Shown one piece after another: positions 1 through 13,840 of a stretch of DNA of 64,000 nucleotides. The stretch is from Salisaeta longa DSM 21114 (lineage in GTDB: Bacteria > Bacteroidota > Rhodothermia > Rhodothermales > Salinibacteraceae). The notes beneath the pieces are model-generated. The model saw only the letters and a program-made list of their open reading frames with translations. It had not been told where the DNA came from and did no database searches. Position numbers and translations under genes: made by a program. The stretch is from positions 1,820,005 to 1,884,004 of the forward strand of contig NZ_ATTH01000001.1 of the NCBI RefSeq assembly GCF_000419585.1. The letters are read 5' to 3'. The first letter of the stretch is position 1; the number at the start of each line of letters is the position of its first letter.

Positions 1-3000
1 CATACGGCCCGCCCCGGCGGTAATGCTTCAATGGACCGATAGGCCCGGTACGATTCTGCTTCTGGATCCCATGCCAGCACGCGCCACGTCTCGGGGTCGG
101 CCGTGCCGTAGTCGTCTTCAAATATGCCTTGAATGCTTGAGTCGCGCGGGGCGACGGGCACCGAGACCATCGCGTACGTCTCCGGACGGAACGGACCGGG
201 GGCTTGCAACGGGGCTTCGAACTGCGTGGGCAGCACGGCCGGATTGTCCCGCGATGCGGCAACGCCCCCACGAGGCCAGGCGAGCGTATCCTGGGCCGTG
301 CGGAGCACCACGTATGCCTCCACGCCGCGTATGGTCACCGCGCTATCCGGCAACGGTGCGGTCCAGCGCCCTTCCCCCGCTCCCGTGAGCGGCTGGCGCG
401 TGAAGGCCGACGCGCCCACGGGCCGATACAACAGTGCCTGTTCGCTTGGCACGAATCCACCGGCAACGGTCACCGCCAAAGTCCCGCCCTGCCCCGCCAC
501 CAAAGGAGTGGTGGGCGCCACGTCGATGCCGGCCACCTGAGCCGTAAGCGGTACCTGCGCCGTATCGATCGGTGTAGCGATTGTAAGCAGCTCGCTGTAC
601 GTGCCAGGCGCTGATGCTTCGAACGCCAGACGAACGTCGCGCGTCGCGTTGGCCGACAGGGTTTGCTCGCCCGTGTCCTCCACGATCGCAAACGCGCTCC
701 CCGTAAGTTGCACGTCGTCGATGGAAAGCGTGCCGGTCCCGCTGTTAGCAATGGTGATAGTTGACACCGGGGCCTGTGCGTCGACGATGAAGGCCCCCAA
801 CCCGACCGAGTCGGGCGAAACCGCAAGTATCGGATTGGGCGTCGTAAAGGCGGTTGGGGCACTCGACACGGAGCCCGCCGCATTATCGGCCCGGACACGC
901 ACCTCGTACGCTACGCCCGGCACTAAATTCGCAGCCGTAGCGCTGACATCCACCGGCGCAGTGCCCGAAATGGGACTCTGATCCGCCGGTATCTCGGTGG
1001 TCGTTCCACCGCCGTCTACCACGAACGTTATCGTCGTGGTCTCCTCGTTCGGATTGACCGAGGCGCTGAACTGCGCGCCCGTGCGCTCCACGTTCGAGAC
1101 CACCGGCGGATCGGTGATCGTTGCTGCATCCGGTACGCTCGTTACCTCCAGCTGCATCGTAGACGAGGCCGTCTTGCTGCCGTCGCTCACCTCAACCGTA
1201 ATCTGCGTGGACCCAAACTCATCAGGAGCCGGGGTGACGGTGATCGTGCGGTCGGTTCCACTGCCCCCAAAGGTGATGCTGCTGGGCGGGGCGAGATTCG
1301 TGTCTTCACTGGTAGCCGTCACCGTCAGGTCGCCCGCGGGCGTCTCCGCGTCGCCAATGGTAAACGCAATGGGTCCCGTTGTCCCGTCTTCCGGAATTGT
1401 CTTATCGGGAATCGCAGAAATCGTCGGCGCGTCATTCGTGCCCGTTACCGTCACGGTCACGGTTGCTTCGCCAGACACCGCTCCGCTTTTGTCTGCGACC
1501 GTGTACGTGAAGGTATCGGTACCGCTGAATTCGGAAGCCGGGGTGTACGTGACCGTTCCGGTCTGGCTATCAACAGTGGTTGTGCCATTCGACGGCCCGC
1601 TCTGTACCGCCACCGTAGATGTATCAATAATGCCGGCAAGGCCGCTCCCCGCTTCGCTGTCGTTCGCCAGCACGTCGATGGCGATCGGCGTCTCTTCTGG
1701 CGTCGTTGCGTTATCGTCAGCTACAGTGGGCGGAATGTTAGGGGTATCGAACGTTAAAGCAGTACTTGTCGTCGCCCGCGCACCGTCGTCTGCCGTTAGG
1801 GTGACCTCGTAGGTGGTGCTTGGCGTGAGGCCCGTAACATCAGCGCTTACCGCCACCGAATCGGTACCGGCGAGCGGCGATTGGGCGGCCGTGACGGTCT
1901 GGGTGCTTCCGCCCGTCGCAGGCCCATAAGCAAACGTAGCCGACACATTACTGGCGTACGGCACCACCGCGCCGTTAAGGGTCGCGCCCGTGCCCGTCAC
2001 CGATGTAGGGGCGTCAAGTGCTACGCTGGGCGAGGCCGCTCCTTCATATGCGCCGGCATCCACGGCGCCCGCCTGCACACGCGCCTGGTCGCGGATGTCC
2101 TGCGGCAGCGGCTCGGTCGTCTGTCCATCGCCGTCAAGGTCTGCGACATCCAGCGGGAGAAGCGACGCACCGCCCGCGTTGAGCGCAGCCGATGCCCCCA
2201 ACACCCGCACGTCGTCATCTGCCGTACCCCACTGATTGTCGGCCCCGTTGCCATCAACAAACTGCGGATCTTTCGCTTGAACGCCGCTGCCTACGCCGCT
2301 CCAGCCGCCTGCCACAAGGCTGCTGTCGATGCGCACCGTTCCGGCTTTTTGCTCGGCCGGGGCCGCCGCGTTGTTATCCCATAGGATCGCGTTTCCGATA
2401 CGCACTTCAAATGCCGAGGCATCGACGCCGTCGGCTTGCACCACACTGCCCAATGCGGCGCCGCTCAATCCCTCATTACCCGCAACGGTGACGTTGGTGA
2501 ACGCGGGCCGCACATAGCCGTCAAGAGTTCCTGTCACGCCCCGGTTGCGCACCACCACGGCCGCGCTATCGGCCATCGCCCGGTTGCCCGTCAGCACGGT
2601 GTTGGCAATGGCGGGCGCGAGCCGTGCGCCTTCGGCAATAGCAAGCGCAGCTATTGCCGCGCCCTGGTGTGCTTCGTTCCCCCACACCCGCGCATTGGAT
2701 ATGAAGGGACGCGTGAAACCGTCGCCGGCAATTAGAATACCGCCCGCTGTGTTAGATATGGGGGCTGATGTGCCGCTTGCTACGTTTTGAGACACTTCAA
2801 CATTGACAAACTGCGCATTGACTTCAGCTGTCGGCCCGAATGTTGCGGCCACAATGCCGGCTCCACCCTCAGCGAAGTTTTTAATGACTCGCAGATTCCT
2901 AAACACAGCGCTCACACGTCCGGTGTTTGATGCGGCCACGGCGAGCCCTCCGCCGAATATGCCGGGCACCACCGATGGGGGGCCGGGTTGTGGACTTTCG

Positions 3001-6000
3001 GCCGTCGCGTGCGCATTGCCTGCCGTGATGGTAAACCCATCGAGGAGGGTCTGAGCACTCAGCGGAAAATCTCCGGCGAAGGACACCGCTGTCACAACGT
3101 GGTAGCTGTTATCGGTGGTGTCGGGCTGCGCGCCAAGGTCGCCGCTCAAGACCGTGTTGTTGGTGGCCGGGTCGGGGTTGCGGCTTGCAAGCGTGCCGCC
3201 CGGCTGGAAGCCCCCGTAGACCTTAACGTTATCTACGAGCTGAAAACTAAGTGCTTGACTGTCGGCCACAAGCCCCGGGCCGTCATCCGGATAGTAGGTT
3301 CCTTCGGCCACATAGATTGCACCCACCGGGTTGCCTGTAGAGGAGCGGTTGCGTGCAGCAGATAGAGCCGCTTGCAACGTACGGTACGGATCGCTCCACG
3401 ACCCGCCGCCAGCATCATCAGCGGTTGCGGCGGAGACGTAAAGGGTTGCACTGGTTGGGGCAGTTCCGCCCTCAAACGCGCCAATATCTACGCGCATGCC
3501 GCTAAGGCGCGGCTGGCCGGCTGCATCGATCGGTAACCGCTCAAAGGTGTCACCGTCGTAGTCAACATCGGAAACATCGGAAGGCACAAACGCACCGGCG
3601 TTGATAACCGGTGACGCCCAGTTAACGTGCAGGCTGTCATCGGGCGTTCCAAACGTGTCATCGGCGCCATTGGCATCGCGAAACAGCGGATTGCCCGTAA
3701 GAATGGGGGGCGACTGTGCCCCAACGCCTTCCGATCCGCCGCCATCGACAACCCCCCCGCCCCCGCTGATGTCAGCTGCACCATTGGCCAGAAGCACCTG
3801 AGAGACCTCAAGCGGCTGCGAGCTGCTGTTGTAGACGGGCGTCCCATTGGCGGCCGTGTTGCTGCGGAAGATCGTGTTCTCAATCTGGAGGGTGTAGTCG
3901 CCACGGTTGTCGATGGCCGCGCCACTCACGCTTCCACTCGTGGCTGTGTTGCCTACCACCGTACTGTTGAGGAGGCGCGGCTTCGGACCAAAGGACGAGA
4001 AGATGTATGAGCCGCTCTGCACGCCAAGGGCGCCGCCTCGCGCGGCCGTATTGCCCGCAAACACGTTGTTCACGAGGCGGGGGGCCGTAGGACCGTCAGC
4101 ATCCAGATAGAGCGCACCGCCACCCTGCCCGGCTTCGTTTTGCCGCCACGTCACATTGGTAAAGGCGGGCTCGCCACCCGTAGCAAAAAAGGCGCCGCCG
4201 CCGTTTGCCGACGCGTAGTTGTCCCGAATGATGACGCGCGCAAATGCAGGACTCACGCCTGCGTCGGTACCGCCTAACAGTAAAAGCCCACCTCCTACGT
4301 TCTCCGGGTACCCGTCCTCGTCAATGTCCGTCCCATCGTTCGCGTATCCGTTGGCAATGGTCACGCCATCTAGGCCCGTGCCCAAATCGGTTATCGGGCT
4401 AAAGGTTTGACGCGCCGTTACTACATGATAACTGTTGTTGGTCGCATCGCCGTCCTGCTGAATCTCTCCACTCAAGATGGTGGCGTTGGCTTGCAGGTCG
4501 CGATTGCGGAGCGTTTGCCCCCAGGTGGCCGCGCTGAACGTCTCGGTTCCGGCAAAGCCGCCGTACACGGTTACGCCCGGCGTGAGGTTGAAACTAGCCA
4601 GGCGGTCATCGGGCGATTGCGCAGTGCCCTCATCCGGATAGTAGGTGCCGGCGGCTACGACGATGCTGTCGTTGGATGTGGCCTGCGCCAACGCATCTTG
4701 GAGGTTTGTGAAGGCATCGCTCCACGACGTGCCGTCGCCGGCGCCCGTCGCGCTATCATCCACGTAGAACAATTTGGGGAAGTCTAGCGCGCCTTCGTAG
4801 GGCCCAAGGTCGGGCGCTGCCTCCTGGTTGCGAGGCGTACTGCGGATGTCCTGCGCCCAAAACTCGTTGGTTATACCATCACCGTCCAGATCCAACGCGT
4901 CAGCGATGATTGAAAAGTCATTATCGAAGCCTACCAGGTCAGAAGTCGCGCCAGCATCCAGCATTGCCGAGGCTCTTCGCAGGCGCAGCCCATCATCAAA
5001 CGTAAGCCATTGCCCATCGGGCCCGCGGGGCGTGGTGATATTCGACACATCGGCCGACTGCTGCGTTAGCATCCCTCCGTCATTCGTAAAGCCAGCGGGA
5101 AACGGCTCATCGAGAAGCGTATGAGCCATCCGTGCGGTGGTTGGCGCATTTGTCACGACATCGGCTCCCGCCGCGCTGCTTGCAAACCAGCTGTTTTGGA
5201 CGCGCACGTCGGCATTGGCTCCGGCGTACAGGGCGTTGGCGCTCCCCGAGGCGTTGTTTTGCGCAGCACCCACATGAATCAGTTTCAACGTCCCCCCATC
5301 CCCGGCCCACAGGGCACCGCCGTCGGTTGCGCTGTTCGCATGGAGCACGGTGTTAACCAGTTTCGCCTCTGTGTCCCCTCCTCCGTTTGCAGCGTAGAAG
5401 CCGCCGCCTGTGTTTCCTGCGTTGGACGCGAAAACCACGCGATGGGCGGTTACATTGGCACTACCCGAGTTTGGGCGCACGTACATGCCCCCACCAGCCC
5501 CTTTGGCTTCGTTGCCTATCATCTGTACATTGAAGACCCCCACAAACACGCTGGCTCCAGCTGCAACCGACGGCCGCGTGTATATGCCACCGCCATTGGC
5601 CGCCTCACCGCTTCCATTGGCATGCCCGCCCGTAATGGTGAGGCCGCGCACCTCTATCGGGGCTCCGTTTGTGCTTGCAGGCACGATCTCTAGCACGTGG
5701 TGCGCGTTGCTTCCTGTACGGTCGCCAGGGGCTTGCACAATGTTGTCGCCATCAACAGCGTCATTTTGCTCAATGTCGCCGCTGAGCACCGTGCGGTACT
5801 GCTGCGGATCGCGAATGCCGCCGCCCGCCGGGTAGCCGCCCTTTAGCACGATGCCACTGCGCGTGATAGTAAACGATGCCGTGCGGTCTCCGTCTGTCTC
5901 CCCCTGTCCCTCATCGGGATAGTACGCGCCCTCGGCAATGTTGATGATGTATGTATCGGCACTCCCCGCATTGGCCTCTGCCAAAGCATCTTGCAGCGAG

Positions 6001-6185
6001 GTGTACGCGTTGGCGAACGATTCCCCTGTCTCAGAGCCCGTGGCGGAGGCATCGACGTACAGATTCGTGGTGGTTTGGGCGTGCCCCATTGCGCCGCACG
6101 CCATCAGCCATGCCATGGCTATGACAAGCCCACGCCCGAGGGCCGTCCAGCGCTGGTTGGTCGGTACCCATTGATGGTTGGACAT
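1..6185 (-). CDS. Giant secreted protein with three beta-helix modules plus FN3/Ig-like repeats (C-terminus outside window)
   Basis: The frame opens at the ATG at 6185 and stays open to the left edge, giving about 2,060 residues without the C-terminus. An N-terminal signal peptide (hydrophobic stretch near residues 18-36, ending ...GHAQ) targets it for export. Three homologous beta-helix modules of the 'choice-of-anchor Q' type follow, each opening with a YVD/YVS motif (about residues 44, 474 and 916) and containing YYPD, GGY/GGF and G-rich turns. After about residue 1385 come an FN3-like domain, two cadherin/Ig-like domains (first with an EETPIAIDVLAND motif and a VTVTVTG end), a second FN3-like domain and an ASPM/HYDIN-type 'choice-of-anchor D' domain. 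The role is inferred to be a surface adhesin or matrix protein. The start lies 56 bp after the CsgG-family lipoprotein gene, so co-transcription is possible. Confidence 0.85.
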   Translation of the reverse strand, partial: MSNHQWVPTNQRWTALGRGLVIAMAWLMACGAMGHAQTTTNLYVDASATGSETGESFANAYTSLQDALAEANAGSADTYIINIAEGAYYPDEGQGETDGDRTASFTITRSGIVLKGGYPAGGGIRDPQQYRTVLSGDIEQNDAVDGDNIVQAPGDRTGSNAHHVLEIVPASTNGAPIEVRGLTITGGHANGSGEAANGGGIYTRPSVAAGASVFVGVFNVQMIGNEAKGAGGGMYVRPNSGSANVTAHRVVFASNAGNTGGGFYAANGGGDTEAKLVNTVLHANSATDGGALWAGDGGTLKLIHVGAAQNNASGSANALYAGANADVRVQNSWFASSAAGADVVTNAPTTARMAHTLLDEPFPAGFTNDGGMLTQQSADVSNITTPRGPDGQWLTFDDGLRLRRASAMLDAGATSDLVGFDNDFSIIADALDLDGDGITNEFWAQDIRSTPRNQEAAPDLGPYEGALDFPKLFYVDDSATGAGDGTSWSDAFTNLQDALAQATSNDSIVVAAGTYYPDEGTAQSPDDRLASFNLTPGVTVYGGFAGTETFSAATWGQTLRNRDLQANATILSGEIQQDGDATNNSYHVVTARQTFSPITDLGTGLDGVTIANGYANDGTDIDEDGYPENVGGGLLLLGGTDAGVSPAFARVIIRDNYASANGGGAFFATGGEPAFTNVTWRQNEAGQGGGALYLDADGPTAPRLVNNVFAGNTAARGGALGVQSGSYIFSSFGPKPRLLNSTVVGNTATSGSVSGAAIDNRGDYTLQIENTIFRSNTAANGTPVYNSSSQPLEVSQVLLANGAADISGGGGVVDGGGSEGVGAQSPPILTGNPLFRDANGADDTFGTPDDSLHVNWASPVINAGAFVPSDVSDVDYDGDTFERLPIDAAGQPRLSGMRVDIGAFEGGTAPTSATLYVSAATADDAGGGSWSDPYRTLQAALSAARNRSSTGNPVGAIYVAEGTYYPDDGPGLVADSQALSFQLVDNVKVYGGFQPGGTLASRNPDPATNNTVLSGDLGAQPDTTDNSYHVVTAVSFAGDFPLSAQTLLDGFTITAGNAHATAESPQPGPPSVVPGIFGGGLAVAASNTGRVSAVFRNLRVIKNFAEGGAGIVAATFGPTAEVNAQFVNVEVSQNVASGTSAPISNTAGGILIAGDGFTRPFISNARVWGNEAHQGAAIAALAIAEGARLAPAIANTVLTGNRAMADSAAVVVRNRGVTGTLDGYVRPAFTNVTVAGNEGLSGAALGSVVQADGVDASAFEVRIGNAILWDNNAAAPAEQKAGTVRIDSSLVAGGWSGVGSGVQAKDPQFVDGNGADNQWGTADDDVRVLGASAALNAGGASLLPLDVADLDGDGQTTEPLPQDIRDQARVQAGAVDAGAYEGAASPSVALDAPTSVTGTGATLNGAVVPYASNVSATFAYGPATGGSTQTVTAAQSPLAGTDSVAVSADVTGLTPSTTYEVTLTADDGARATTSTALTFDTPNIPPTVADDNATTPEETPIAIDVLANDSEAGSGLAGIIDTSTVAVQSGPSNGTTTVDSQTGTVTYTPASEFSGTDTFTYTVADKSGAVSGEATVTVTVTGTNDAPTISAIPDKTIPEDGTTGPIAFTIGDAETPAGDLTVTATSEDTNLAPPSSITFGGSGTDRTITVTPAPDEFGSTQITVEVSDGSKTASSTMQLEVTSVPDAATITDPPVVSNVERTGAQFSASVNPNEETTTITFVVDGGGTTTEIPADQSPISGTAPVDVSATAANLVPGVAYEVRVRADNAAGSVSSAPTAFTTPNPILAVSPDSVGLGAFIVDAQAPVSTITIANSGTGTLSIDDVQLTGSAFAIVEDTGEQTLSANATRDVRLAFEASAPGTYSELLTIATPIDTAQVPLTAQVAGIDVAPTTPLVAGQGGTLAVTVAGGFVPSEQALLYRPVGASAFTRQPLTGAGEGRWTAPLPDSAVTIRGVEAYVVLRTAQDTLAWPRGGVAASRDNPAVLPTQFEAPLQAPGPFRPETYAMVSVPVAPRDSSIQGIFEDDYGTADPETWRVLAWDPEAESYRAYRSIEALPPGRAV

Positions 6186-6241
6186 AAGCCTACGAAGATG
6201 CATGAAGGGTAGCATTCAGTACAAGCGAAATCCGGCCGATA

Positions 6242-7540
6242 CTACGGACGCGGTGGGGCCGGCGGTAGGGGAAGGTCGCCCGACATGGTTCCGCCGATGG
6301 TTCCCGTGGGCGAATTCGTAGGGAGAGCCAATCCGCTGTTTGCAAGCCGCTGCAGCCGACGACTGACGGCGTCCGTGCTGCTTAGTTCAAGGCCGTCCTG
6401 GGCGCCTGCAAACGCCTGGCCGATCGACCCGCTGGTAGCGCTTAAGCCCATAGCGCGCTGCTTAGCCCGTGCAGCGGCCTGAAACGAGGGATCGAGTCGC
6501 GCGGCCTGCCCAAACTGCTGGGCGGCGGCGCGGTAGCGCCCTTCGTCTTCGAGGCGAAGGCCGCGGCTGTACAGCAGAAACGCCTGCAGGTTACGCGTGG
6601 GCACCCGCTCGATGGCCTGCTCCTCTTGCGGCGTCAGCTCGACGTTTAGACCCTCGACGACGCGGTACACCAGCGTGTTTTGCACCTCAAAGAGCCGATC
6701 AAGGTCGGCGGTGAGCGTGCTGCGGTCGGGCAAGCTGACCCCGGTGGCCACGCCCGTAAACGACAGCCCAAACGTTATGGACGCGTCCTCCACGCTGTAG
6801 GAACCACTCACGAGCCGACCGGCGCCCAACAGACGCCCCACCCGCGGCGCTGTCTGCGGATCGACGTACTGGCTTTGCGCCAGCTTCAGCTCATCGAGCA
6901 GTGCCTGCAGCCGCACGCGCTCCACCACCCGAAGCCGGTCGATGTTGGCCAGGTCAGTGGCAATCGTCTCGCTCAGCCCGCGCTTGAGCACCGCGTAGCG
7001 CTCGTCGCCGGCCAGGTAGGTAAACGGCAGCACGGCCACCACCCGCGGCGATACGGGCTGCCCCATCGAGCGCTCGCGGCTCAGCGCCTTCCGGACTTGC
7101 GCCCGCGCTTCTTTGCGTTCGAGCCAGGCCAACCGGCCCTGCAACAGCGCTCGGTACTTTGAATCGGCCGGCACCTGCGTATAGCTGGCATACAGCTCGC
7201 GCGCGGTGCCCACTTTGCCCACACTTTCGGAGGCCAGCCCCAGGTAGAACAATGTCTTGGGGTCATCCGGCTCCTGTGCGTATGCCCGCTTGAGCGTATC
7301 GTACGCTTTTGTGGGACGCCCGGTGCGCATGTAGATGATGCCCAGCCGCTGCAGGGCCACTAGGTCGGCCGGCGATTGCGCAAGACGCGCCTGCAGGCGC
7401 TTCACCTCGGCGGCATACGCACTCGGGTCCTCGTTAAGGGCAACCCCGGAGCTCCCGCAGGCCACCAGCATACTCGCGAGTCCCATGAGCACGGCCACGC
7501 GCAGCACCGCGCGTTGTATCTGCTGTACAGAGCTTACCAT
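6242..7540 (-). CDS. CsgG/FlgO-family lipoprotein with TPR repeats
   Basis: The predicted product has 432 residues. The chosen start (7540) gives a compact lipoprotein signal with the lipobox Cys at residue 28 (LVAC). A longer reading from 7582, directly abutting the stop of the upstream gene (TAGATG), is possible but gives an unusually long n-region. Residues about 35-140 look like TPR helices (ALQRLGIIYMRTGRPTKAYDTL). The middle has CsgG-family signatures: VVAVLPF, LRVVERVRLQALLDELKL and GRLLGAGRLVSGSY. A further TPR-like segment precedes a Pro-rich tail. It is probably a periplasm-facing outer-membrane lipoprotein. It pairs with the next upstream paralogue and precedes the beta-helix protein gene. 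Secretion-pore function is only inferred from the CsgG family. Confidence 0.8.
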   Translation of the reverse strand: MVSSVQQIQRAVLRVAVLMGLASMLVACGSSGVALNEDPSAYAAEVKRLQARLAQSPADLVALQRLGIIYMRTGRPTKAYDTLKRAYAQEPDDPKTLFYLGLASESVGKVGTARELYASYTQVPADSKYRALLQGRLAWLERKEARAQVRKALSRERSMGQPVSPRVVAVLPFTYLAGDERYAVLKRGLSETIATDLANIDRLRVVERVRLQALLDELKLAQSQYVDPQTAPRVGRLLGAGRLVSGSYSVEDASITFGLSFTGVATGVSLPDRSTLTADLDRLFEVQNTLVYRVVEGLNVELTPQEEQAIERVPTRNLQAFLLYSRGLRLEDEGRYRAAAQQFGQAARLDPSFQAAARAKQRAMGLSATSGSIGQAFAGAQDGLELSSTDAVSRRLQRLANSGLALPTNSPTGTIGGTMSGDLPLPPAPPRP

Positions 7541-7582
7541 GGCTTCGTCTCTCGTCGATCCATCAAACGGTTGCGAACGCAT

Positions 7583-8668
7583 CTACCGGTTCATGTTCGA
7601 CGACGGAACCGTGCCTTTGTCCTGCACCTCGGCCTGCGCCACGAGCAGGGGCCGCAAGCTCTTGGCCTTAATCTTCGCGCGCTTGAAGCTCTTGTCGTAT
7701 TCAGCGGCCTGCAGAAATTTCTCGTAAGCCGCCCGGTACTTCCCGTCCTCTAACAGATTTAATCCGTCGGAGTAGGCCATCATCGCATCGAGCGACTTCG
7801 TGTCGCTGCCGCCCATCTTCTGCTCCTTCACGGCGACGTTCAGCGACCGCGTGATCTCCATACTCAGATCTTCGATGAGCGTGTAGAACTCATCGGGCTT
7901 ACCCATAACCTGCTCGCCCAGCAAAATCTCGCCGGTCTCTACCTTCACCACGCGGGCCTGAATCATCATGCGATCCTCAAACACCGTGTAGCTGCCAAAC
8001 ACCACCGCGTTGGCGCCCAGCAACTTACCGGTACGCACGGCGGTGGACTGGTCGACGATGCCTTCTTTCTGCTGGAGCTTAAGCTCGTTGAGGAGCCACT
8101 CGATACGCTCGCGCTCAATGACCTTCAGGTCGGTGCCCTGGTTCAGGTAGTTGATCATCATGGCCGGGAGCCCCTTGCTCAGCCCCTGAAACCGCTCGCG
8201 CTGGTCGATGGAGTTGTTGGAGAAGTCCATGACGGCTAGCGTCTGCATCCCAGGGCGCTGCTTTTGCACCTTGTAGCCGTTCATCTCCTTGCGCACCTCG
8301 TAGTAGAGGTTCATCACCGGCGGCGGCTCCATGTTAGGGTTCAGCTCAACAAGTGGCGGCTCGGTCTTGATGAGCCGGCGGATGGCCTCGCGGGCCTCGC
8401 CTTTTTTGTTGCGCGCAATGTACGCACGCCCCAAGTAGCGCAGCGCCTGCTTCTTCCGCTCGGCACTTACCGAGGTACTGTTGGCAACCTGCGTAAACAG
8501 GTCGATGGCCTTCTCATACTCTGCAAACTGATACGCCGTCTGGGCCTTCTCAAACGTTGAAGACTGCCCGTGCACCGGCGGCACAAAAAGCAAGCACCCC
8601 ACAAGGAGCAACAGCACGCCCCCCAGGCGCTGATGTCGCGTTGAACGAGTATAGATGGACGTTATCAT
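7583..8668 (-). CDS. CsgG-family secreted protein with TPR ends
   Basis: The product is about 361 residues from the ATG at 8668. That start places a clean signal peptide (GVLLLLVGCLLFVPPVHGQ) at the N-terminus; an ATG six codons earlier adds nothing. TPR-like helices occupy about residues 40-100. A CsgG-type domain follows, with LAVMDFSNNS, LKVIERERIEWLLNELKL and TGKLLGANAVVFGSYTV. A C-terminal TPR follows (YSDGLNLLEDGKYRAAYEKF). The stop is followed at once by the first possible ATG of the lipoprotein paralogue, so translation may be coupled. Lies downstream of the Ser/Thr kinase gene across about 130 bp. Family membership is clear; the transported substrate, if any, is unknown. Confidence 0.8.
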   Translation of the reverse strand: MITSIYTRSTRHQRLGGVLLLLVGCLLFVPPVHGQSSTFEKAQTAYQFAEYEKAIDLFTQVANSTSVSAERKKQALRYLGRAYIARNKKGEAREAIRRLIKTEPPLVELNPNMEPPPVMNLYYEVRKEMNGYKVQKQRPGMQTLAVMDFSNNSIDQRERFQGLSKGLPAMMINYLNQGTDLKVIERERIEWLLNELKLQQKEGIVDQSTAVRTGKLLGANAVVFGSYTVFEDRMMIQARVVKVETGEILLGEQVMGKPDEFYTLIEDLSMEITRSLNVAVKEQKMGGSDTKSLDAMMAYSDGLNLLEDGKYRAAYEKFLQAAEYDKSFKRAKIKAKSLRPLLVAQAEVQDKGTVPSSNMNR

Positions 8669-8800
8669 AGCGATAGCCTCTGGCATGATACAATTGTTGG
8701 TAAGTGTACAGCACGGATTCGTACAGGCACAAACGGCCCACGCAAGACAACCCTGCCGATGATTCCCCGCATGTCTCCTCCCAGAAGCATGCGAGATGGG

Positions 8801-11164
8801 CTAAGGCTGCTGAACCGTGAAAGATACAGCATATTGTTTCGGCACAAACGACGGGCGGACCCGAATCGGAACGGATGCGCCAGTAAACGACTGGGTGACG
8901 GCTTCGCTTCCCACACGAGACCGTATAACTCCCCCCACAACGCGCATGGCATCGCTTCGCGCAATGCGCAACTCAATGCGATGTGTTCCTGGTCCTATTT
9001 GTAACGGTGTGCTTAACGGAGTACTTTTGCCCGTGTTCGTTCCGTCGATCCATACATTTCCCCACGGCCCTGTAGTAGTGACGTTGACCGGGTACTGAAA
9101 GTAACAGGTCAATTGTGCCCGTCGGCCGGACGTGACCGTTACGGTCGTGTCGATGGTTCCATATTCCGGGTGACGACACGCGACCCGCTGGGGACCTGGC
9201 GTGAGCCGATATGCGCCGGGCGCGCGCGCCTCTGATCCATTGACGACAACCTGAGCGGTAGGAACGGCTTGCACCTGAAGAAGCGCGGGTGCAGGGGCCT
9301 GGGGCGTTGGGGTAGGATCCGCTGCCTGGTCCGCCGATGCGGGAGCGTCGGACGGCTGATCGGTCGGTCGTACGGTTTCTGTCTTGTCGGACGCCTGCGT
9401 GGCGGACGGCGGGTTGCCCGCGGCATCGCGCGCCCCGTCACCCGGCGGCGACGCGTTGGCCGCAAGCGCGCCGGGGGCTGGCGCGTCGGGGCGGGCCGCT
9501 GCACCGGAAGGGGCATCGGCTTGCGCCGTGGCGGGGCCCGACGAACGGGACGAAAGGGCGATGCCGCGCACGGCATACGATGCGCCGGCACGCAGCGTGA
9601 GTGTCGTGTCGAACGGTGCGTATCCTTCTTTTGAGATCCGAACGGTTGCGCGCCCCGGGGCTACGGCGAGCTGTTGTGCGGGCGTGGTGCCTACCGTGTC
9701 GCCGTTCACTTGCACAGTGGCGCCCTCCGGGGTGCTGGCAACGGCCAGCACGGCAACGGCTGATGCGCTCCCTCCGCCGCCTTGCATAAACTGGTAGCCG
9801 CCATACAGCCCGGCCAGCAGCACGAGAAGGGCAAGACTGCCCCACAGCACCGACCGGCCCCCGCGGTCTTCTTCCGACGCCTCAACCGGCGCCCGCGTAG
9901 TAGCAGACGGCGTTGCGCGCTCCGGCGGCGCTTCGGGATCCGAAGGAGCCGCTTTTGTTGCCTCCGAGGGCTCCGGTGCGCGCGCAGATGCAGCAGCGGG
10001 TGGTGCGTCGGCAGACGAAGGATCGTCCTGGGGCGCAGCCGGCTGCTTGGAGGTACCGGGGTCGGCAGGAGGCGGCGCCTCGGGCGCGGTCTCATCGAGG
10101 ACCGTTTCATCGAGCATGGTCTCGTCAAGTGCCCCCTCATCCATTACGGTTTCGTCGAGGGCCGTCTCGTCCATCGTCGTTTCGTCGAGGACGGTCTCGT
10201 CAAGCGCCGGAGGATCGGCCAGGGCCGTCTCGTCGACCGTCGTTTCGCCCGGCTCCGAGCCGTCATCGTCCGGCGGGTCGGGGAGGTGCCCCACGATCGT
10301 TGCAGCATCCTCGGCCGGCGTGCTCTCCAGTGCATCCTCCACCGCCGCCAACGCTTCAATCATCGCCTTGGCGTTCGGATAGCGCTCGTCCTGCGCTTGC
10401 GCGGTGGCCCTTTCGATGATGCCCACCAGCGCCGGCGGCAGGTCGTCGCGGTATTCATCGGGCGATGGCACGTCGCCCTCAACGACCCGGCGCATAATGT
10501 CGAAGTCGGTGGCCGCCTGCTCAAACGGCAAGGTGCCGGTGAGCATCTGAAAGGCCATCATGCCCACCGCGTACAGGTCGCTACGGCCGTCTACGGCGTT
10601 GATATCGGAAATTTGCTCGGGCGCCATGTACTTGAGCGTGCCGCCTTGCCCGCCTTGGGTGACGGTTTGGCCCGAGTCGGGGCTACGCATCTTGGCGATG
10701 CCGAAGTCCGTCACTTTCACGCGGCCGTCGCGCGTGAGCATGATGTTGGCTGGCTTGATGTCGCGGTGGATCACACCGGCATCGTGCGCGGCCTGGCAGG
10801 CCTGCAGGGTTTGCTTGAGGATACGCACACTGACGCTCGTGTCGATCGCGCCGTCCTCCAGCAGATCCTCCACAGTTCCGCCGTCTACGTACTCCATCAC
10901 AATGAGGAGGCCCACCTCGGTATCGCGCAGCGCGTAGATGCTTACGATGTACGGACTGTCGACGCGGGCAAGCGCGCGGGCCTCGGACCGAAAGCGATGC
11001 AAGAACATCTCGCGGTGCGACTGCGACGGGTTCACCCGCTTGATGGCCACTTTGCGCGAGAGCGCAATGTCTTCACCGGCGTACACCGTGCCCATGCCGC
11101 CCCGGCCGAGCACGCGCTCAATGTGGTAGCCATCAATTTCTTTGCCGATCGGCTCGTCTTGCAT
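8801..11164 (-). CDS. Transmembrane Ser/Thr protein kinase with PEGA domains
   Basis: The product has 787 residues. The N-terminal Hanks-type kinase is complete: glycine loop at 20-25, catalytic Lys42 (VAIK), HRDIKPAN at 133-140, DFG at 153-155 and APE at 181-183. Residues 308-362 form an acidic linker dominated by tandem DETxx pentapeptides, followed by a Pro/Ala-rich stretch. One transmembrane helix lies at about 439-459. The extracytoplasmic part has a PEGA domain (about 472-525: STPEGATVQVNG, APGRATVRISKEGY), low-complexity linkers and one or two more PEGA-like domains. The gene follows the FHA-protein gene by 43 bp, which suggests the FHA protein is its partner or substrate. The kinase should act in the cytoplasm with its sensor part in the periplasm. 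Confidence 0.93.
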   Translation of the reverse strand: MQDEPIGKEIDGYHIERVLGRGGMGTVYAGEDIALSRKVAIKRVNPSQSHREMFLHRFRSEARALARVDSPYIVSIYALRDTEVGLLIVMEYVDGGTVEDLLEDGAIDTSVSVRILKQTLQACQAAHDAGVIHRDIKPANIMLTRDGRVKVTDFGIAKMRSPDSGQTVTQGGQGGTLKYMAPEQISDINAVDGRSDLYAVGMMAFQMLTGTLPFEQAATDFDIMRRVVEGDVPSPDEYRDDLPPALVGIIERATAQAQDERYPNAKAMIEALAAVEDALESTPAEDAATIVGHLPDPPDDDGSEPGETTVDETALADPPALDETVLDETTMDETALDETVMDEGALDETMLDETVLDETAPEAPPPADPGTSKQPAAPQDDPSSADAPPAAASARAPEPSEATKAAPSDPEAPPERATPSATTRAPVEASEEDRGGRSVLWGSLALLVLLAGLYGGYQFMQGGGGSASAVAVLAVASTPEGATVQVNGDTVGTTPAQQLAVAPGRATVRISKEGYAPFDTTLTLRAGASYAVRGIALSSRSSGPATAQADAPSGAAARPDAPAPGALAANASPPGDGARDAAGNPPSATQASDKTETVRPTDQPSDAPASADQAADPTPTPQAPAPALLQVQAVPTAQVVVNGSEARAPGAYRLTPGPQRVACRHPEYGTIDTTVTVTSGRRAQLTCYFQYPVNVTTTGPWGNVWIDGTNTGKSTPLSTPLQIGPGTHRIELRIARSDAMRVVGGVIRSRVGSEAVTQSFTGASVPIRVRPSFVPKQYAVSFTVQQP
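10079..10201 (-). repeat. 15-bp tandem repeat encoding a DETxx pentapeptide array in the kinase linker
   Basis: Eight 15-bp units encode kinase residues 322-362: DETVL, DETTM, DETAL, DETVM, DEGAL, DETML, DETVL and DETAP, ending in Glu. Six of the Thr are followed two residues later by Asp (TxxD), a consensus read by several FHA domains when the Thr is phosphorylated. Two imperfect units lie just before it (residues 308-317). One unit has lost its Thr (DEGAL). The period and near-identity suggest expansion by replication slippage, so unit number may vary between strains. Confidence 0.9.
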
Positions 11165-11207
11165 GATCCGTTCTGCTTACTTAACGGGGTGCGAGAAAAA
11201 ACGCAGG

Positions 11208-12338
11208 TCAATCGTCAGGCAGGGCGTCCGGGTCTTCCACCAGTTCTTCTTTCGAGATATTCCACGCATCGGCCATCCGATCGAGGTAGGCGCTCATGAA
11301 TGCGGGGCGAAACCACTTTTTCTCGATGGCGCTCCAGTCGCCGTTGTATAGCTTCTTCCAACGGTTGGCACTGGCTGCTGTCTGCTTGTCGTTATCCTCT
11401 GCAAACCACTTGCCAAACACGCCGTCGCTTGTGCGGTCGGTTGGCTGCACCTGCTCAAGCACCTTTTTGCCACCAGATTCCACGCTCTGCTTGTACCCAC
11501 TGAGCATAGCAATTTGGTGCGCCACGAGCGTGTTCACCGAAGCGCGGAGATCATCGAGCCGCTCGGTCTGCTCCTCATCCGATAGCTTAGGATCGAGCAG
11601 GTGCATCTGCAAGCTTTCGAGGTCGGCTTTCCGCAGGAAGGCCATCTCGGGCGGTTGCATGACGGTGTGTCCGCTAAATTCGCGCCAGAAGTGCGGCGGG
11701 ATGCTGATCATGCGGGCCACGGCTTCGAGCAGGGTGTTGAGCACCGGGCGCACCCGCGCCGGAACCGAGGCACTGTCGCCGTCCGCTTTTGGGGTGCTTG
11801 GCTGGAGCGCATCGGCCACCTGATGGGCCACCCGGGATGCCGCCGGAGCGCCCTGCAGTGCCTGTTGCAGCGCCTGCTCCAGCTGCGCGTCGCGCTCCTG
11901 CTCGGTCATGTACTGATACGCATCGGCCATTTCTTCCAGCGCTGTGGCCAGGCGGGCGGCGGGCTTGGAGAAGGCATTCCCGCCCATGCTGTCGCTTCCC
12001 GCCAGGGCCGTTTGCTCCGATGACGGCATGAACAGCGGCACAAATTCGACCCGAAACTCGCCAAGGCTAAAGACATCCCCGCTTTGCAGCGTCACCGGCG
12101 CGTGGGGTTGTAAGCGCTCGCCGTGCAGGTACGTGTGGTTCTTGCTTCCTTGATCGGAGAGCTTGTACTCGCCGCCCGTCTGTTCGATTTGGGCGTGGCG
12201 CTTGCTAATCTTTTGGTCCGGCAGCGTAAGGTCGTTGCCACTGCCGCGCCCAATGGTGATGCGGTCTTGCTCAAACAGATAGTCGGCCGCCTCGCTGGCG
12301 TCCTCCCCTTCGCGGGTTACCTGAAGCTTGATGGGCAT
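11208..12338 (-). CDS. FHA-domain protein with a type VI secretion TagH-like C-terminal region
   Basis: The product has 376 residues and no signal peptide. The FHA domain spans about residues 20-100 with the expected phosphothreonine-binding motifs (ITIGRGSGNDLTL, KISKRHAQI, SKNHTYLHGERL). After a helical linker, about residues 195-360 resemble the C-terminal domain of type VI secretion FHA proteins (TagH/Fha): LLEAVARM, DLRASVNTLVAHQIAMLSGY, then WKKLYNGDWSAIE and FRPAFMSAYLDRMAD. In known systems such proteins are phosphorylated or bound under control of a PpkA-type kinase. The kinase gene follows by 43 bp. No type VI structural gene is visible nearby, so a different output is likely. The C-terminal assignment is by eye and less certain than the FHA domain. 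Confidence 0.85.
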   Translation of the reverse strand: MPIKLQVTREGEDASEAADYLFEQDRITIGRGSGNDLTLPDQKISKRHAQIEQTGGEYKLSDQGSKNHTYLHGERLQPHAPVTLQSGDVFSLGEFRVEFVPLFMPSSEQTALAGSDSMGGNAFSKPAARLATALEEMADAYQYMTEQERDAQLEQALQQALQGAPAASRVAHQVADALQPSTPKADGDSASVPARVRPVLNTLLEAVARMISIPPHFWREFSGHTVMQPPEMAFLRKADLESLQMHLLDPKLSDEEQTERLDDLRASVNTLVAHQIAMLSGYKQSVESGGKKVLEQVQPTDRTSDGVFGKWFAEDNDKQTAASANRWKKLYNGDWSAIEKKWFRPAFMSAYLDRMADAWNISKEELVEDPDALPDD

Positions 12339-12469: not shown

Positions 12470-13840
12470 TCACGTTCTGGTAGCAGCCGCCGGCAGCCGG
12501 TGCACCTGTTGGCGGAAGCGCGCGATGAGCGCAACGGCAGCGGCGGCGAGTCCTACCACCAGCCCCCACCACAGGCCATACACGCCGTAGCCCCACTGAA
12601 GGCCGGCCACGTATCCGCTGCTGAGGCCGATGCCCCAGTACGTGCACAGCGCAATGAGCATGGGCACGCGCGTATCTTTGAGGCCCTGCAGTGCGCCGTG
12701 GGCGGCCACCTGCAGCCCGTCGACGACTTGAAAGAAGGCCGCGATGCCCAGCAGGTGGGCGGCCGCTTGTGCAACCGCCGCCGTGTGAGTGCCTTCGGCG
12801 GCAAGATAGACCCGCACGATCGCCGCGGGCCATGTCCAGAACACCACGGCACTGATCCCCATGGCACTGCCGGCTAGGGCCATGGCCAGCCAGCCCGCGC
12901 GCCGCACGCCGGCCGCATCGCCCCGCCCGGCGGCCTGCCCCACACGCACCGATCCGGCAATTGACAGGCCGACCGGCACCATAAACACGAAGGCTACGGT
13001 TTGCAGCGCAATTTGATGGGCGGCGAGGGCCGTCGTTCCGAGCGTGCCGGCCATGAGGGCCGTAAGCGTAAAGAGCCCGGCCTCGATGCCGCGGGATACG
13101 CCCATCGGGCCGCCCACGTACACCAGCGCGCGCAGCATGCGAAGGTCGGGCGTGCGCAGGCGATGCCACAGCGGATACATCCGGAAGGGCCGCCCGGCGT
13201 ACGTGAGCCCTGCCAGGAGCGCAAACATGAACCAGAACACGAGGGTTGTGGCCCACCCGGTGCCCACAAGTCCCAGCGCGGGCAGCGGGCCGGCGCCAAA
13301 CATGAGCGCGTAGTTGGCGGCAATGTTGAGCGCGACGCCGCCGTACGTTATCACGGTGACGGGCACCGGGCGTGCAAGGCCCTCGGCAAAGCTGCGCAGG
13401 GCCTGATAGCCCAGTGCGGCGGGCAGCCCCCACACGATGGCGTGCAGGTAGCCCGTAGCCTGCGCCACAGCCGCCGGAGCTTGCCCCATCCCATGCAGCG
13501 CCGGCTCGGCAAACCATAACAGCGCTACGGCGGGCACGCCAAGTCCCACCGCGAGCCAGAGCCCCTGGCGCACGCTGCGCGTTACGGCGGCATGGTCGCG
13601 CCGCCCCACGGCCTGCGACACCATGGGGTTGACGCCCTGGATGACGCCGGTGGTTACGATGAGCACAAAGAAGAACAGCGTGTTGCCCAGCGCGACGCCC
13701 GCGAGCGCCGTGGGGCCCAGCTGCCCCACCATCACCGTATCGATAAACCCCATCGACACCTGGCCCACTTGCGCGGCCGTTACCGGTGCCGCCAGCCGTC
13801 CCATCGCCGCCAGTTCGGCACGCAGCGCGTCTCGATTCAT
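12470..13840 (-). CDS. MATE-family multidrug/Na+ efflux transporter
   Basis: The product has 456 residues, a normal length for MATE antiporters, with about twelve hydrophobic segments. N-terminal family features include VGQVSMGFIDTVMVGQLGPTAL, and the second half repeats the pattern (AHQIALQTVAFVFMVPVGLS, VGQAAGRGD). Such proteins export organic cations in exchange for Na+ or H+. The ATG overlaps the stop of the upstream peptidase gene (ATGA), which indicates translational coupling. Specificity cannot be read from the sequence. Confidence 0.93.
   Translation of the reverse strand: MNRDALRAELAAMGRLAAPVTAAQVGQVSMGFIDTVMVGQLGPTALAGVALGNTLFFFVLIVTTGVIQGVNPMVSQAVGRRDHAAVTRSVRQGLWLAVGLGVPAVALLWFAEPALHGMGQAPAAVAQATGYLHAIVWGLPAALGYQALRSFAEGLARPVPVTVITYGGVALNIAANYALMFGAGPLPALGLVGTGWATTLVFWFMFALLAGLTYAGRPFRMYPLWHRLRTPDLRMLRALVYVGGPMGVSRGIEAGLFTLTALMAGTLGTTALAAHQIALQTVAFVFMVPVGLSIAGSVRVGQAAGRGDAAGVRRAGWLAMALAGSAMGISAVVFWTWPAAIVRVYLAAEGTHTAAVAQAAAHLLGIAAFFQVVDGLQVAAHGALQGLKDTRVPMLIALCTYWGIGLSSGYVAGLQWGYGVYGLWWGLVVGLAAAAVALIARFRQQVHRLPAAATRT

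Follow-up and report, generated by a model that had tools for sequence, protein, structure and literature searches.

The TagH–kinase–CsgG–CsgG operon of the DNA analysed here, a 64,000-nucleotide stretch that we call the window, is well supported by sequence comparison as an orphan paralogous copy of the PpkA–Fha threonine-phosphorylation module. The linker of its kinase carries a row of threonine motifs. The reading that we prefer, at slightly better than even chances, is that of an orphan T6SS-type module in which the linker threonines would be sites of the kinase that are bound by the FHA domain of the TagH-like protein, with the array acting as a multivalent docking platform.

Organization of the operon

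All genes of the operon lie on the minus strand, the FHA gene being followed, after a 43-base gap, by the kinase gene and then by two CsgG-domain genes. The parts are as follows.

11208..12338, minus strand: TagH/Fha-like protein, 376 aa
12060..12260, minus strand: FHA domain, residues 27–93, with R31, S45 and N67 (PF00498, 1.3e-19)
12000..12020, minus strand: conserved Thr site after the FHA domain, SEQ-T110-ALA
11274..11744, minus strand: C-terminal helical region, residues about 199–355, aligning with T6SS_FHA_C of relatives
8801..11164, minus strand: transmembrane Ser/Thr kinase, 787 aa, PpkA-like by position and architecture (Pkinase, 3.8e-48; PEGA, 2.2e-21)
10361..11128, minus strand: kinase domain, residues 13–268
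9854..10333, minus strand: cytoplasmic linker, residues 278–437, rich in A, P, D, E and T
10082..10201, minus strand: array DET[VTAM][LMP], eight units, one of them DEGAL, residues 322–361
9782..9853, minus strand: single transmembrane segment, residues 438–461, from hydropathy
9569..9751, minus strand: PEGA domain, periplasmic, residues 472–532
7583..8686, minus strand: CsgG-domain protein 1, with signal peptide
6242..7582, minus strand: CsgG-domain/TPR protein 2, putative lipoprotein (LVAC)

The PpkA-type architecture is present, namely an N-terminal kinase domain, a transmembrane segment and a periplasmic domain, with an FHA gene adjoining. Because the one hydrophobic segment, from residue 438 on, and then PEGA come after the linker, the linker should sit on the kinase (cytoplasmic) side. 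An earlier note on this DNA had put the array on that side and the FHA gene 43 bp upstream of the kinase gene, and both placements hold. The note's pairing of the FHA protein with the kinase finds circumstantial support: the gene pair is conserved in nine genomes of the window's family, a paralogous module recurs in T6SS clusters of the order, and the pThr-binding residues R31, S45 and N67 are intact. Very probably, then, the two adjoining genes encode partners.

A MatE gene (12470–13840) adjoins the TagH gene of the window. The 4.4 kb downstream of the operon (window 1813–6241) gave no ORF of at least 250 aa and no Rfam match.

The FHA protein and its T6SS relatives

TIGR03354 VI_FHA was the best-matched family for all 31 aligned members, and T6SS_FHA_C (PF20232) was matched in 24 of the 31 aligned relatives (best, 1.9e-10). 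VI_FHA was the top family for the window's FHA protein too, which scored 75.2 bits against it, below the curated cut-off of 120.25, and its match to T6SS_FHA_C fell short of E 0.1, with the invariant columns of that region shared. On account of the sub-threshold score and the missed T6SS_FHA_C match we call the protein TagH-like, not TagH; judged from the alignment it is a relative of the TagH/Fha proteins of T6SS. The OdhI model also matched it, at 8.1e-13 and far below cut-off. The predicted full-length structure is confident for the FHA part only, and T110 falls in a low-confidence stretch.

Many of the TagH relatives are encoded ahead of TssJ, TssK, TssL and TssM, and a paralogous FHA–kinase module is found in T6SS clusters of the order. 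At L065–L067 a single cluster holds genes for PP2C, kinase, CsgG, CsgG, OMP, TagH, TssJ, TssK, TssL and TssM, with a similar cluster at L054; at L046 and L048 the kinase–CsgG–CsgG genes are divergent from TagH–TssJKLM. The window's genome (98.5% complete) gave no match to TssC or TssK, the two core proteins searched, and neither was found in G085 (99% complete) or G114 (92%). In the TagH tree nine orphans of family f1, together with two lone copies of very divergent sequence, are separated from the T6SS-linked proteins (100/99), and in the kinase tree the orphan kinases form one clade (support 100/98). Nearest to that clade are the T6SS-cluster kinases L125 and L048 (supports 92/84 and 98/92); L125, which belongs to the T6SS cluster of G177 itself, was entered in the tree as 'other', and it has a long branch and an unsure place. 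Both kinds of TagH are present in G069, G177, G193 and G202. Because relatives carry both copies, a recent T6SS loss with TagH left over was dropped in favor of an older paralog.

A second decoupling was seen in family f11, where locus L057 has the order TagH, FHA, PP2C, kinase, CsgG, CsgG. TssC was not found in G053, G093 or G126 of this group, and G126 has TssK fragments. A PpkA–Fha-type module persists in two lineages, f1 and f11, in genomes with no detectable T6SS.

These relationships place the operon nearer to the PpkA–Fha (TagH) pathway of T6SS than to the mycobacterial FHA proteins with which it had been compared in the earlier note. The PpkA–Fha1/PppA pathway of P. aeruginosa, S. marcescens, A. 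tumefaciens and A. citrulli likewise has a membrane kinase with a periplasmic sensor and a TagH/Fha protein, and relatives of the window operon lie within T6SS clusters with PP2C and TssJKLM. The window differs in that its genome has no detected T6SS marker (TssC, TssK), in having PEGA and CsgG parts in place of TagQRST, in the lack of a PP2C gene in the operon (two are found elsewhere in the genome), and in the repeated threonine motifs of the kinase linker.

Several orphan operons have a very large gene after the CsgG pair (L039, L043, L044), which is absent from the window; its product at L039 (14388–18001) is 1204 aa long and contains HYDIN/ASH-like Ig domains. Very divergent TagH-like proteins are encoded at L047 (6622–7806) and L063 (8611–9774) with no kinase or T6SS gene adjoining; at both loci a MatE gene lies upstream, at a distance of two or three genes.

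The DETxx array and the linker motif

The array at residues 322–361 reads DETVL DETTM DETAL DETVM DEGAL DETML DETVL DETAP. Eight DETxx pentapeptides had been claimed; there are indeed eight in-frame 15-bp units, of which seven are DETxx and one is DEGAL, and an extra DETAL lies outside the array at residue 311. The six TxxD motifs reported for the array are there (T324, 329, 334, 339, 349 and 354), and TTVD at 308 is a further one in the linker. In the DNA the 15-bp period runs for 7.7 copies with only 59% matches (TRF). The DET codons show almost only synonymous differences between units (pS 0.97, pN 0.07), while the two variable xx codons have a pN/pS of 0.69. From the DET codons, therefore, the array is on this measure an old one in which D, E and T have been held by purifying selection, not a fresh product of slippage. 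Among 114 genomes of the order, 18 contained a DNA pattern for DETxxDET, with overlapping matches (five) only in the window's genome; an array of this kind was sought elsewhere among the 114 genomes, and only scattered single matches were seen.

TxxD itself did not prove to be the motif to be recognised, as the earlier note had supposed. The window's linker has seven TxxD versus 2.3 expected after shuffling of the linker (p 0.002). In the linkers of seven orthologous kinases TxxD was at chance (11 seen, 12.0 expected), as was Asp at +3 (11 seen, 11.9 expected), which rules out TxxD as a conserved motif. Conserved instead is a threonine followed by two hydrophobic residues. T[VAI][VLIMF] was seen 17 times in the ortholog linkers, the window excluded, versus 1.6 expected, and 9 times versus 0.9 with one genome per genus, for a motif that was defined after inspection of the linkers and in orthologs that share ancestry. 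Of fourteen residue types tried before the hydrophobic pair, none but Thr was significantly enriched; hydrophobic residues are otherwise scarce in these linkers, and the Thr enrichment is found in all orthologs.

The seven orthologs have one to four copies of the motif per linker, with a single one in L039 and L042. The copies differ from lineage to lineage: the window has DET[VA]L with a spacing of 5 residues, L097 has (R/S)QTVVP with a spacing of 13–15 residues, and L044 has ETVLA. This looks like one short motif multiplied independently in separate lineages. Rows of such motifs are absent from the T6SS-linked and f11 kinases, which have linkers of 15–35 aa, one of 85 aa without Thr, and at most one motif copy. 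As these kinases are paired with TagH all the same, the array is evidently not needed for pairing in general.

The threonine site after the FHA domain

Of the 31 TagH proteins, 29 have, shortly after the FHA domain, a threonine whose surroundings resemble [DE]x[RQEK]T[VA][FLY], for example DYDRTVFD in T6SS-linked TagH and SSEQTALA (T110) in the window. The two exceptions, L060 (8180–9367) and L099 (712–1926), are the T6SS-linked TagH copies of G069 and G202, and in both the pThr pocket is also changed, S45 to R and N67 to E. The joint loss of pocket and site suggests that the FHA domain binds the post-FHA site, either in cis or in trans; L060 and L099 are sister sequences, and the loss counts as one event. 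In the T6SS-linked TagH of L065–L067, S45 is changed to G and the post-FHA Thr is kept. Co-variation by lineage between the T110 site and the linker of the same genome's kinase seemed plausible on inspection (TVLAD in L044, TALA in the window) and was rejected, the likeness being not significant in a permutation test (p 0.26).

A similar arrangement is known from the GarA/OdhI FHA switches of Actinobacteria, in which a conserved Thr site adjoins the FHA domain and the partner is a kinase. There the Thr site precedes the FHA domain, whereas in the window's TagH it follows it, and the latter has an extra C-terminal domain and T6SS ancestry.

Proposed mechanism and alternatives

That the threonines are phosphorylated, that the FHA domain binds them, that the binding is multivalent and that the module has an output are all inferred from these features. 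Envelope input through the PEGA domain and the CsgG proteins would activate the kinase, and the active kinase would autophosphorylate those threonines of its linker that fit [DEQG]T[VA][LMV]. The FHA domain of TagH would bind the phosphorylated threonines, so that TagH is held at the membrane. TagH would then probably be phosphorylated at its own similar site, T110, and pT110 could be bound by the FHA domain of another TagH, giving chaining. In the window's kinase, multiplication of the linker site has given seven DETxx copies, which would make the kinase a multivalent platform gathering TagH. The docking platform of the earlier note is thus retained in so far as linker Thr motifs are far above chance across orthologs, and is given up in its TxxD part. 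A bolder proposal, which we hold to be possible and clearly less probable, is that a control module of T6SS has been co-opted for T6SS-free use, the autophosphorylated linker, with its row of FHA sites, nucleating membrane assemblies of TagH that would be the working structure itself.

Experiments on T6SS provide precedents. In Acidovorax, Fha foci require active PpkA and require neither Fha phosphorylation nor tssJ–clpV, and Fha was bound less by kinase-dead PpkA; how Fha recognises the active kinase was left unexplained (PMC12607579). In Agrobacterium, pThr14 of TssL is bound by the FHA domain of Fha (PMC3953482). Linker threonine motifs that resemble the conserved TagH site would be a concrete, testable answer to how Fha recognises the active kinase.

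The linker threonines might instead be phosphorylated in the service of the kinase, for activity tuning, dimerisation or juxtamembrane charge, with TagH docking elsewhere, e.g., on the activation loop. Bacterial kinases do autophosphorylate many linker sites, and T6SS-linked kinases pair with TagH without linkers of this kind. For PknQ and MupFHA, docking and simulation placed the FHA domain on activation-loop Ser170/Thr174, with linker sites also phosphorylated (PMC4238996). We consider this unlikely, given that by itself it would leave unexplained the like motif T[VA][FLY] after the TagH FHA domain, and also the occurrence of motif rows in just that clade in which the pThr-adjacent loop of TagH is altered. 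Somewhat less likely still, the array would be an acidic spacer, expanded by repeats, that separates the kinase from the membrane and has no specific part in phospho-docking. The low complexity, the A/P/D/E-rich composition and the varied length of the linkers would suit a spacer, and slippage easily yields tandem arrays, yet the units have kept DET at synonymous saturation (pN/pS 0.07), Thr alone is enriched before two hydrophobics, and other kinases of the same genomes have no such enrichment. Least credible is a pTxxD-specific FHA platform of the mycobacterial kind with affinity set by TxxD copy number, for which the TxxD excess of the window's array and linker speaks, as does Lys43, two residues before the pThr-binding Ser and at what we take, as a lead only, to be the place of the Rad53 FHA1 Arg that reads Asp+3, and against which stand the chance levels of TxxD and of Asp at +3 in the seven orthologs, although Lys43 is shared by five of those whose linker is complete.

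The preferred reading, docking of TagH on a row of linker phosphothreonines, has partial parallels. The transporter Rv1747, which forms PknF-driven condensates, combines FHA domains with a phosphorylated disordered linker, and its clustering is raised by the kinase (review, PMC9312465); there the linker is on the FHA protein, while in the window it is on the kinase. The SDT repeats of MDC1, read by the FHA-BRCT region of NBS1, are an acidic repeated phosphothreonine motif like the window's array (PMC8079451), but they are eukaryotic and are doubly phosphorylated (pSDpT) by CK2, not by the docking protein itself. The literature searched yielded no paper that deals with CsgG/PEGA kinases in connection with T6SS, and none on tandem-repeat docking for bacterial FHA proteins.

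A second FHA–kinase pair

The window's genome has a second FHA–kinase pair at L073, 5630–11753 (G000:C1:2830629-2836752), in the order PP2C, one gene, FHA gene, and a kinase with WD40-like repeats. The linker of this kinase has a conserved motif, TQ[VI][FY], which reads KTQVFR in the window's genome; of eight kinases examined from relatives, seven have it.
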